Shown: piece by piece, positions 35,971 through 46,239 of the stretch
Position numbering within the stretch: the first letter of the stretch is position 1
How the letters are laid out: every line of letters starts with the position of its first letter
Translations under genes and position numbers: made by a program
Source: Methanococcoides seepicolus
GTDB lineage: Archaea > Halobacteriota > Methanosarcinia > Methanosarcinales > Methanosarcinaceae
Direction: 5' to 3'
Length of the DNA: 61,146 nucleotides
NCBI RefSeq assembly: GCF_023684405.1
Contig: NZ_JAGSOI010000009.1
Coordinates: forward strand, 1-61,146
Notes under the pieces: generated by a model
What the model saw: the letters and a program-made list of their open reading frames with translations, nothing else
Told to the model about the DNA's origin: nothing
The model's database searches: none

Positions 35971-36342
35971 TTATGCTGCGTTCTCATCAACTTCCCACAA
36001 TCCGAAGGTGTTCTCTTCGGTATCCATACAAACTGCAAGATGGCCCCAACCTGGAACAGGCATCTTTGGCTGTAACACTGTCCCTCCGAGCTTTTCAACA
36101 CGAGTGCAATAGTCTTCAACCGATGCAACTTCGATGAAATTGGTTATTCTCTGTTCAGGACTTCCACGAAGCCCCATGCCTCCGCCGACCCCTTTCTCCC
36201 CTTCGAGGGATTCCGTCTCTATGAAGTAGTAGTCCAGAGGTCCCGGAACTTTTTCAAATTTCCAGTCGAACAGTTCGGTATAGAACTCCTTTGCCCTGTC
36301 AATATCGTTGGCAGGCAAGTCAAAATGTGCAATCGTCGGCAT
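35971..36342 (-). CDS. VOC (glyoxalase/bleomycin-resistance) superfamily protein
   Basis: A 123-aa single-chain VOC protein with two beta-alpha-beta-beta-beta modules: HFDLPANDIDRAKEFYTELFDW at the N-terminus and the second starting near VASVEDYCTRVEKLGG. Members bind a metal and act on small molecules as lyases, dioxygenases or resistance proteins. PVPGWGHLAVCMDTEENTFG is the usual closing region with a metal-ligand Glu. GGAGTGAT precedes the ATG. The exact reaction is unknown. Confidence 0.85.
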   Translation of the reverse strand: MPTIAHFDLPANDIDRAKEFYTELFDWKFEKVPGPLDYYFIETESLEGEKGVGGGMGLRGSPEQRITNFIEVASVEDYCTRVEKLGGTVLQPKMPVPGWGHLAVCMDTEENTFGLWEVDENAA

Positions 36343-36472: not shown

Positions 36473-37165
36473 TTACATTAATTGAATATCGCTGTTAATA
36501 TCTTCAAGGGTATTGCAGGAGGTCATTATCATTGCTTTTTCAATATCTGACCTCATATAATCTATCAAACTTCTAACCCCTTCCGCACCATGGGGGACAG
36601 CCTCACGTACTATTGGACGACCGGTCAATACATGATCAGCACCCAGGGCAAGCATCTTCACAACATCAAAACCGGTCCTTACCCCACCATCGGCAGTTAT
36701 CACTACCTTTTTGCCCTTTTTACTGTTCCTGATGGTTTTCACTATATTAGGGAGAACATCAGCAACTCCGGGGGTAGAATCAAGAACACGTCCGCCATGG
36801 TTTGAGATGCCTATTATATCTGCACCTGTTTCTAGTGCTGCCAGTGCATCGTCTTCACACATGATCCCTTTGACCATGAAAGGAAGGGAGGTAGAGCGTT
36901 TTAGTTCCTTAATATCATCGATGGTTTTTCTGACCACAGGTTTTCCGGCAAGGGTAAAATTAACCGATCCGGCACCGTCAATATCCACGCCAACAGCTAT
37001 AGCTTTGGACCTTTCGGATTCTTGTATAAGTTCAATAAGAGTATCCTGTGAGCGTGGTTTGAAAATGTTGACACCATGTCTTCCTACACTTTCCAGTGCA
37101 GTTATACCCGGGTGGACTTGAAAATCCTTTGCTGTATCCCCTGTGAATCCAATGAGTCCATCAAA
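36473..37165 (-). pseudogene. 5'-truncated FMN-dependent alpha-hydroxy-acid dehydrogenase-like gene
   Basis: The C-terminal half of an FMN-binding TIM-barrel oxidoreductase (lactate oxidase/type 2 IPP isomerase-like). Motifs present are VDIDGAGSV, PFMVKGIM, GISNHGGRVLD and TADGGVRTGFDVVKMLALGADHVLTGRP. Family-like sequence continues in frame upstream of the GTG at 36988 through VNIFKPRSQ and GFTGDTAKDF to 37165, where it stops at a TAA lying in a perfect inverted repeat. The N-terminal 100 or more residues, normally carrying early FMN-binding residues, are missing, so I call it a pseudogene. A shorter product from 36988 could still be made. Confidence 0.7.
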
Positions 37166-37200
37166 TTAGCATATAAATTCTCTCATTCTAATTTGATGGA
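37157..37200. repeat. Perfect 13-bp inverted repeat at the breakpoint of the truncated gene
   Basis: TCCATCAAATTAG (37157-37169) and CTAATTTGATGGA (37188-37200) flank an 18-nt AT-rich loop. The reading frame of the truncated FMN enzyme enters the first arm and ends. A related repeat with the same ATCAAATTAG core occurs near 46109-46155, so the unit is dispersed. Confidence 0.65.
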
Positions 37201-37239
37201 TTCTTATAGAAATAAGGCACTAAGGATAAAAATGTGGAG

Positions 37240-37324: not shown

Positions 37325-39856
37325 TTACAGGTAGCCTTCCATTTCATCGAATTGAAGATACCTGTAGATCTCATCCTGTTTTGGCTCGATCTTCTCCCTG
37401 TAAACTTCCATGTACTCATCTACCGTGGGTATCCTGCCAAGGTTGGAGATAACCGCTCCAAGCTCCGCTGAGCCAAGGTAGACCTGTGCTCCGTCACCCA
37501 CGCGGTTGTCGAAGTTACGGGTGCTGGTGGAAAACACTGTGGAGGCATCCGGTACACGAGCCTGGTTCCCCATACACAGTGAGCATCCCGCTATCTCGAT
37601 GCGGGCACCGACCTGGCTGTACACGGAGAAAACTGACTCTTCCCTGAGCTTTGCCTGGTCCATCCGGGTAGGAGGGCATATCCAGGTACGGACATCCGGG
37701 TTGAATTTCTGGTCATGCCAGATCTCGGCTGCTGCGCGGAAGTGACCGATGTTTGTCATGCATGACCCTATAAAGACATCCTGAATAGTGGTGCCTGCAA
37801 CCTCGGAAAGCAGCTTGACATCATCAGGATCATTTGGGCATGCAAGGATCGGCTCTTTAATGTCCGCAAGATCGATCTCTATGACGGCGGCGTACTTTGC
37901 ATTCGGATCCGCTTTTAGTAGTTTCGGGTCTTCCAGCCACTCCTCAACAGCATCTATGCGCTTTTGGAGAGTCTGTGCATCGTTGTACCCGTCCTCGATC
38001 ATCTTTTTCATCAATGCCAGGTTGGAGCGCAGATAGGTGGCTACGGGCTTCTCATCAAGCTGGATGCAACCGGCTGCAGCTGAGCGCTCTGCAGCAGAGT
38101 CCGTCAGCTCGAATGCCTGCTCGGCTGTGAGGTCGGGTAACCCTTCAATTTCCAGGATCCGTCCGTTGAATATATTGATCTTGTTCTTCTTTGGCACGGT
38201 CATAAGACCCTGCTTGATAGCATAGTATGGTATGGCGTTGACCACATCACGCAGGGTGATTCCAGAATTAAGCTCTCCACTGAAACGTACCAGCACGGAT
38301 TCGGGCATATCCAGAGGCATGAAACCCAGAGCTCCGGCAAAGGCTACCAGCCCGGAACCTGCCGGGAATGATATGCCTATCGGGAACCTGGTATGAGAGT
38401 CGCCACCTGTACCCACGGTGTCTGGAACCAGCAGGCGGTTAAGCCAGCTGTGGATTACCCCATCCCCCGGATGCAGGGAGACCCCGGCACGCTCAGAAAC
38501 AAAATTTGGCAGTGTCCTTTGCATCTTCACGTCCGCAGGCTTGGGGTAGGCTGCGGTGTGACAGAATGACTGCATGAACATGGGAGCCTGGAACTTGAGG
38601 CAGGCAAGTTCTGTGAGTTCGTCAGCGGTCATGGGACCAGTGGTGTCCTGGGAACCGACAGTGGTCATCATCGGCTCACAGGCGGTGCCAGGCAGAACTC
38701 CATCTACGCCGCATGCGCGACCAACTATCTTCTGTGCCAGGGAGTAAGCCTGTCCCGGTTCAGGCTTCGGATTATCGGGTTTAACGAATATGTCTGTCTC
38801 AGGGAGACCCAGTGCCTCGCGAGCCCGGGTGGTCAACGACCGACCAATTATGAGGGGAATACGACCGCCTGCGCGGTATTCGTCCGGAAGGGTGTTGGGT
38901 TTGAGGTCTAAAGTGGAGAGTACATTGCCTTCTTCATCTGTTACTTCGCCCTTTACGGTATTGATGGTGATGATATCGCCGTGCCTGAGCTTGCTGATAT
39001 CCATTTGCAGAGGAAGAGCGCCTGAGTCCTCGGCTGTGTTAAAGAAGATAGGAGCTATAGCAGTGCCGATGATCACACAGCCACGGCGTTTATTTGGGAC
39101 ATATGGTATGTCCTTGCCGATGTGCCAGAGCACACTGTTGCAGGCGGATTTGCGGGAAGATCCGGTTCCTACCACATCAGCGACAAAGGCAACTTCGTTT
39201 CCTTCCTCACGCCATTTTGCCATTTCCTCAATGCCTCCCGGGAAGCGGGTATTGCCCATTTCCAGTGCATGAAGAGGTATGTCGGGGCGACTCCATGCAG
39301 CACTGGCGGGGGAGAGGTCGTCGGTGTTGATCTCGCCGTCAACCTTGAATACCCTGACAGTTATGGTCTCAGGGATCCCTGGTCTGCTTGTGAACCACTC
39401 AGCGTTCGCCCAGCTCTCAAGAACTTTTCTAGCAGCGTCATTTGTCTTTGACAGTTCCAGTACGTCTTCAAAAGCATCGTAGACCAGGGTTATGCCTGAA
39501 AGTGCACAGGTAGTCTCATCTGCTACCTCGGCATCCCCGAGTGCTTCGATAAGATACTTGACATTATAGCCGCCGATCATGGTTCCCAGGATCCGGGTCG
39601 CTTCCTTTTTGTCGATAAGCGGTGAATAGACAGCTCCTGCCAATATATTACCAAGGAAATCTGCCTTGACCTTTGCAGCAGGGTCTACACCAGGAGAGAT
39701 TCGTTCCCTGAACAGGTGGAGCAGGAACTCTTCCTGGTCTGCAGGAGGATTTTGTAATAACTCACAAAGTTCAGAAGTCTGTTCCGGATTCAGAGGAAGT
39801 GCAGGAATTCCCTGGGCTTTCCTCTCTTCTTCGTGTTTTAGATAAGATTCGATCAT
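37325..39856 (-). CDS. acnB: Aconitate hydratase B
   Basis: An 843-aa bacterial-type aconitase B that interconverts citrate and isocitrate. The N-terminal HEAT-like domain (LKHEEERKAQG, PADQEEFLLHLFRERISPGVD) precedes the swivel domain (DGEINTDDLSPA), as is diagnostic for AcnB and opposite to AcnA. The 4Fe-4S cysteines are present: one in IGSCMTNIGH and two in GCSLCMGNQ. The length is close to bacterial AcnB. GGAGG precedes the ATG. By eye it is more GC-rich than neighbouring genes, which suggests acquisition from bacteria. A remnant of an AcnA-type gene lies 190 bp upstream on the other strand. Confidence 0.96.
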   Translation of the reverse strand: MIESYLKHEEERKAQGIPALPLNPEQTSELCELLQNPPADQEEFLLHLFRERISPGVDPAAKVKADFLGNILAGAVYSPLIDKKEATRILGTMIGGYNVKYLIEALGDAEVADETTCALSGITLVYDAFEDVLELSKTNDAARKVLESWANAEWFTSRPGIPETITVRVFKVDGEINTDDLSPASAAWSRPDIPLHALEMGNTRFPGGIEEMAKWREEGNEVAFVADVVGTGSSRKSACNSVLWHIGKDIPYVPNKRRGCVIIGTAIAPIFFNTAEDSGALPLQMDISKLRHGDIITINTVKGEVTDEEGNVLSTLDLKPNTLPDEYRAGGRIPLIIGRSLTTRAREALGLPETDIFVKPDNPKPEPGQAYSLAQKIVGRACGVDGVLPGTACEPMMTTVGSQDTTGPMTADELTELACLKFQAPMFMQSFCHTAAYPKPADVKMQRTLPNFVSERAGVSLHPGDGVIHSWLNRLLVPDTVGTGGDSHTRFPIGISFPAGSGLVAFAGALGFMPLDMPESVLVRFSGELNSGITLRDVVNAIPYYAIKQGLMTVPKKNKINIFNGRILEIEGLPDLTAEQAFELTDSAAERSAAAGCIQLDEKPVATYLRSNLALMKKMIEDGYNDAQTLQKRIDAVEEWLEDPKLLKADPNAKYAAVIEIDLADIKEPILACPNDPDDVKLLSEVAGTTIQDVFIGSCMTNIGHFRAAAEIWHDQKFNPDVRTWICPPTRMDQAKLREESVFSVYSQVGARIEIAGCSLCMGNQARVPDASTVFSTSTRNFDNRVGDGAQVYLGSAELGAVISNLGRIPTVDEYMEVYREKIEPKQDEIYRYLQFDEMEGYL

Positions 39857-40231
39857 CTTTTTCCTCCATAAGAAATTGCATTTTCGGCTGCATTGGCAAC
39901 TGTGTAGCTTTTTCTTCTCTGGTTACTTTAAAACAGTATTTGATTGTATGGGATATGATGCTGATAATCGTGTTTGCTGTATATGACATTAACGGGGCAA
40001 CAAATGAATATCTTTTTTGAATGAGCCTAGTCGAAGGCGAGATTGCAACTTCCATGACTTTTCGCTGGAAATCGGTGAGATGTCAGATATCAAAGCTGCA
40101 CGCGCACTTGTGTTCGTTGCAGACAGCATCACTACCGACCACATCTCCCTGGCAGGTGCAATTCCACTACTGATTCTACTAAATCTTCCAAATCCTGAAA
40201 TATCCCTGAAGGCTTGATTCTAAAATAATAT
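39857..40231. other. Gap between acnB and pncB holding the acnA remnant
   Basis: The 375-bp gap contains the acnB leader (minus strand, with its GGAGG just upstream of 39856) and the decayed acnA fragment at 40047-40166. I see no other gene. The pncB gene on the minus strand ends at 40232. Confidence 0.6.
40047..40166 (+). pseudogene. Remnant of an AcnA-type aconitase
   Basis: About 40 codons on the plus strand read NFHDFSLEIGEMSD, then IKAARALVFVADSITTDHIS and LAGAI. This matches the start of the swivel domain of AcnA/IRP-type aconitases (consensus: I-x-GAR-x-LA, then GDS-x-TTDHISPAG-x-I). The surrounding sequence does not continue the family in either direction and no ribosome-binding site or start is evident, so it is a fossil. 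AcnB carries a different form (TDDLSPA), so this is not a copy of the neighbouring gene. Confidence 0.7.
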
Positions 40232-45915: not shown

Positions 45916-46239
45916 AAACACAATTCCTGATTATCCATGATTGTTGAAAATTCGAAGGGAACATATACTGTTACATAAGTATGACTTGTTTTTACACATC
46001 TGGAATATTGTTTACTAAGTCCTTGAGTTTGATAAAAAGGTACGATATTATGTCATATAAACATTTTTATATTAATTCAGTAGTTCACATATTTTAGTTT
46101 TAATTCATTGGATCATCAAATTAGAATAGATAAATTATGAGCTAATTTGATCATCTCTCTATCTCGCTTAATCATATAGTTAATTTTATATGACATTGGA
46201 ACTAATAAAATATTACTCATGGGGGTGAGGGATTTGATT
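45916..46239. other. AT-rich gap containing a dispersed inverted repeat
   Basis: A 324-bp spacer. CATCAAATTAG (46113-46123) faces CTAATTTGAT (46141-46150), the same core as the repeat at 37157-37200, with a 17-nt loop. It lies between the protease promoter and a small membrane-protein gene. I see no other gene. Confidence 0.5.

Follow-up and report, generated by a model that had tools for sequence, protein, structure and literature searches.

A gene for a rubredoxin-FMN_dh fusion protein is cut off at the terminal base of a 50-bp hairpin made of little more than the two ends of an insertion sequence (IS), so that its truncation is accounted for down to the base. We examined this junction in a 61,146-nt stretch of DNA from the methanogenic archaeon Methanococcoides seepicolus (the window) and compared it with the same locus in related genomes. 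The loss is probably an IS-type adjacent deletion anchored on the 50-bp miniature element, with the transposase supplied in trans. ISs, miniature elements and adjacent deletions are each of known kinds, and the case is a well resolved one; what deserves attention is how it recurs across the genus and how small the element is. In Methanococcoides this hairpin borders losses that repeatedly took the aconitase A, citrate synthase and flavoenzyme genes, and acnB is kept by all. Should a transposase prove responsible, genes would be lost through the activity of very small elements that annotation pipelines do not pick up.

The truncated gene and its junction

The intact arrangement is found in two relatives, G005 and G009 (L009, Methanococcoides sp. 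SMBSF09), in the order NAPRT - acnB - acnA - citrate synthase - rubredoxin-FMN_dh - glyoxalase - KOR, with acnA and the citrate synthase gene on the minus strand. In both, the rubredoxin-FMN_dh protein has 404 aa; at L009:4476-5690 its gene is divergent from the citrate synthase and aconitase A genes. A relative of the protein, 63% identical, also occurs in G024, a genome from the same taxonomic order. In the window the order is acnB - element - FMN_dh from residue 178 - glyoxalase - KOR (Table 1).

Table 1. Features at the deletion junction, in window coordinates
Feature	Position	Strand	Basis or remark
Glyoxalase-like gene, downstream; its conservation anchors the synteny	35971..36342	-	Named from sequence, not by family search
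C-terminal remnant of the rubredoxin-FMN_dh fusion (residue 178 to the end of the 404-aa protein)	36473..37153	-	Comparison with intact relatives
Deletion junction, element terminal base to FMN_dh codon 178	37153..37154	.	Ambiguous by ~1 nt
50-bp miniature IS-derived element (hairpin)	37154..37203	-	Palindrome, arm-pair copies, fold, IS-end match
Intact acnB (aconitate hydratase B, 843 aa), on the opposite side of the element	37325..39856	-	

An earlier note on this DNA, made from the letters alone, had described a flavoenzyme gene that stops inside the first arm of a 13-bp perfect inverted repeat, its N-terminal portion being absent from the other side. The repeat is as described (37157-37169 and 37188-37200), and the frame does remain open to 37165, where the first in-frame stop falls inside the hairpin arm. 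Homology to the intact protein, however, ends a few bases earlier, at 37153, immediately outside the 50-bp palindrome. This first base of the remnant adjoins the last base of the element, and the breakpoint is thus the terminal base of the element itself. Alignment with the homologues in G005 and G009 maps the missing part to residues 1-177, which take in the rubredoxin domain and the beginning of the FMN_dh domain; the N-terminal part is found neither across the repeat nor anywhere else in the same genome. Together with acnA and the citrate synthase gene it makes up a missing segment of about 4.6 kb (4.63 kb measured on G009, 4.65 kb on G005).

The product of what is left of the gene would presumably be unable to form a whole barrel. 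The dN/dS of the remnant relative to G009 (0.12) is like that of the intact neighbours (0.10-0.11). As this gives no hint of prolonged neutral decay, the deletion is probably young, and the short product may be functional. Comparison with M. alaskense (G002) also reveals a second deletion of ~75 bp, between 9-bp direct repeats GCGATATTC, which altered the last codons of the remnant (36473-36500).

A 50-bp hairpin built from two insertion sequence ends

With one mismatch allowed, the palindrome extends over all 50 bp and reads GAATCC-ATCAAATTAG-(18 nt)-CTAATTTGAT-GGACTC, its 16-nt ends being complementary at 15 of 16 positions. The single strand has a folding energy of -11 kcal/mol, where shuffles average -3.5 (z -4.9) and none of 200 reaches its value. 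An Rfam search of the hairpin region returned chance matches only. A genome-wide search for the repeat core with its partner, as the earlier note had proposed, found the exact arm pair ATCAAATTAG-N-CTAATTTGAT in 10 copies, with none for the reversed control pattern; six more genomes of the genus also have the pattern, and a more distant genome has it once. A more diverged second copy of the hairpin lies within the window at 46109-46157, with the gene for a large surface protein on one side and an ABC-permease-like gene on the other.

Some of the 10 exact-arm hairpins are right ends of full ISs and others are solitary. The full IS copies in this genome measure 1277-1279 bp and have 17-bp ends GAGATTATCAAATTAGC; many of the ATCAAATTAG-N-CTAATTTGAT copies are their right ends. 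The 375-aa ORF of the IS matches PF01609 (DDE_Tnp_1) at 3e-7 and contains a Y-2-R-3-E-6-K motif, as judged by eye, while the sole NCBIfam match was to IS5, below threshold. We class it provisionally as a DDE insertion sequence with a YREK signature, of the IS4-like superfamily, with ISH3 as a candidate family. Long transposase ORFs of this IS family occur in the genome, and 5-bp target duplications (GAAAT, ATTTC, AGTGT, ATTAT) flank four of the seven copies of which both ends were seen. Since the ORF adjoining the hairpin encodes a DDE_Tnp_1 transposase and such duplications occur, a right-end hairpin of the IS200/IS605 (TnpB) kind was ruled out.

Both outer ends of this IS are present in the 50-bp units: the ATCAAATTAG core and the outer GAG...CTC are common to the units and the 17-bp IS ends, and the three intervening bases vary. 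At 50 bp in total, the element holds no transposase gene. The IS right end contains an inner ATCAAATTAG copy in direct orientation to the left end, and the 50-bp unit may have arisen when the DNA between two such direct copies was lost. Units of the form GAG-NNN-ATCAAATTAG-N18-CTAATTTGAT-NNN-CTC stand apart from full ISs at the window locus, on contig C80 (twice), at C12 of G004 and in G006.

The C80 site (L020:1495-2729) lies in the same genome as the window. Here two 50-bp units enclose a 1135-bp cargo with a YcxB-like gene, and CTTTT stands on both outer flanks, a 5-bp duplication as with the full IS. G004 has the empty site, in which the flanking genes are joined without the unit. The duplication and the empty site together indicate that a hairpin of this kind is able to function as the end of a transposon. 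No target duplication was found around the single copies at the window locus and at G004 C12, and it is because only the two-element C80 unit shows one that we term the single copies IS-derived miniature elements.

Prokaryotic miniature inverted-repeat elements (MITEs) are similarly short, non-coding and dispersed, with the terminal repeats of a resident DDE IS. In contrast to these, the window element has only 50 bp, barely more than two ends, and its loop comes from an IS right end that itself has the extra inner ATCAAATTAG. The C80 unit, in which two miniature copies bracket a cargo moved as a unit, recalls mobile insertion cassettes and the TIMEs, Tn3-derived miniature elements that mobilise the DNA between two copies (PMC4133298), although its ends come from a DDE_Tnp_1 IS instead of Tn3 and its cargo is the gene for a YcxB-like protein. 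No description of the 50-bp element family was found in the literature searched, most subscription journals lying outside that search. We would tentatively propose that a 50-bp element consisting of little more than two ends may still be acted on by transposase in an archaeon, serving both at the end of a two-element unit and as a recurrent anchor of adjacent deletions that dismantled one metabolic cluster in several lineages.

The locus across Methanococcoides

The cluster has been lost in eight of the ten Methanococcoides genomes compared at this locus. The two that retain it, G005 and G009, are without the hairpin; among the relatives compared, none has the repeat beside an intact gene or the same short form as the window, the others having different short forms. 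The hairpin lies behind acnB in M. alaskense (G002), G004 and G006, and in a decayed form in G008 and G010. All five of these relatives have lost the cluster, four of them (G004, G006, G008 and G010) from the same edge of the element.

In G002 the native acnB-acnA spacer is present to the right of the element, other parts of the cluster having gone by separate deletions, which indicates that the element was at the site before the losses. In G006 (L134) the element edge is followed by ~24 nt matching a stretch just after the G002 FMN_dh stop and then by an inserted element whose transposase was labelled IS66-like from its sequence. The upstream region of the glyoxalase gene adjoins the element edge in G004, G008 and G010, where junctions are placed only within several bases and a GACT match is shared by them in one reading. 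In G001 and G007, which keep FMN_dh scraps, the breakpoints lie inside the left arm and not at the outer end. G009 keeps the left-flank sequence, as though the palindrome had been lost from the site.

In trees of acnB and KOR, hairpin-bearing and hairpin-free genomes occur in both main clades, and the acnB of G004 is displaced. The G004 region at C9:245299-247999 is ~94% like the window over acnB and the element, and ~81% over NAPRT and KOR; judging by these values, its acnB tract looks imported from the other clade. A single shared ancestral deletion was rejected, as the surviving remnants differ in extent from lineage to lineage. The trees and the junctions of the relatives instead point to an element older than the losses, with varied far ends joined to one near end. 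Perhaps two to four independent deletions were joined to the element edge, a count made uncertain by the imprecise junctions of G004, G008 and G010 and by the imported-looking acnB tract of G004.

Origin of the deletion and remaining traces of acnA

The earlier note had suspected the repeat of being mobile or recombinogenic and of having caused the deletion. The match of the repeat's ends to those of the IS and the breakpoint at its outer edge lend support to this, whether a transposase acted or the palindrome broke. In the adjacent deletion that we favour, the 50-bp non-autonomous element, composed of the two terminal repeats of the 1.28-kb DDE IS, would have been present in the acnB-acnA intergenic stretch beforehand. 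Full IS copies would have provided a transposase in trans that cut at the terminal base of the element, and the cut end would have been joined to a target elsewhere on that molecule, within the FMN_dh gene. The intervening DNA would thereby have been lost, and with it acnA, the gene for citrate synthase and rubredoxin-FMN_dh codons 1-177. Support for this reading comes from the hairpins that act as transposon ends at C80, from the long transposase ORFs of the family, which make a supply in trans available, from the presence of the element before the losses and its absence from both intact genomes, and from the pattern of one fixed end at the element terminus with varying far ends, which is that of IS adjacent deletion. 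Adjacent deletions by IS903, and by IS150 in the E. coli long-term experiment, likewise start at the end of a resident element and have far ends that vary by lineage, and stepwise growth of such deletions next to a resident IS has been documented in real time (PMC11708052). Our case differs in its 50-bp miniature anchor and its archaeal host, and in having been reconstructed by comparison and not watched.

That transposase made this particular cut is what we infer, and several points weigh against it. With 50 bp, the unit leaves little length for its two ends to be paired in one complex, and IS903 adjacent deletion has been reported to require both ends. The left-arm breakpoints of G001 and G007 do not fit a cut at the outer end, and no clear target duplication surrounds the element behind acnB. 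ACCTT is a candidate for such a duplication from the comparison of G002 with G005, but would require an odd left end of ten extra bases. The imprecise junctions of G004, G008 and G010 and the uncertain number of independent events also count against the reading.

Alternatively, the palindrome itself may have broken. It may have extruded or stalled replication and been cut at its base, the break then being rejoined to distant DNA through short matches, all without transposase. The hairpin folds well, junctions lie at the base of the stem with possible microhomology of 1-4 nt, G001 and G007 break within the left arm, and G009 resembles a site that lost the palindrome itself. Moreover, the base of the hairpin is also the end of the element, so that position alone does not separate the two modes of breakage. 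On the other hand, a span of 4.6 kb is long for slippage between short repeats, and the window junction falls on the terminal base of a transposon end of a kind that transposes elsewhere in the same genome. We thus regard structure-driven breakage as a possible but rather unlikely origin.

The adjacent deletion is also to be weighed against ordinary deletions of an unneeded cluster, whose left ends would stop at the hairpin because reaching further would harm acnB or its terminator. This could accommodate the loss of the cluster in eight of the ten genomes compared, the breakpoints elsewhere in G001, G002 and G007, and a terminator-like acnB hairpin just left of the element. However, ~30 free bases lie between that terminator and the element, and yet the window and G006 both break at the right edge of the element, as do G004, G008 and G010 less exactly; we consider this account improbable. 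An assembly error in the metagenome-derived contig is more doubtful by far: the genome is indeed a draft in 158 contigs, its contamination estimated at 4.4%, but synteny is conserved on both sides (acnB; glyoxalase-KOR), and related genomes, single-contig ones included, show the same kind of loss.

Pieces of acnA persist on the far side of acnB. A fragment of 40-60 codons (residues ~666-713) lies upstream of acnB on the opposite strand, at 40047-40169 of the window, which raised the thought that acnB had been inserted into acnA; this was dismissed, since G005 and G009 have acnB beside a whole acnA. In G004 the same gap upstream of acnB holds a different acnA scrap (residues 883-923).
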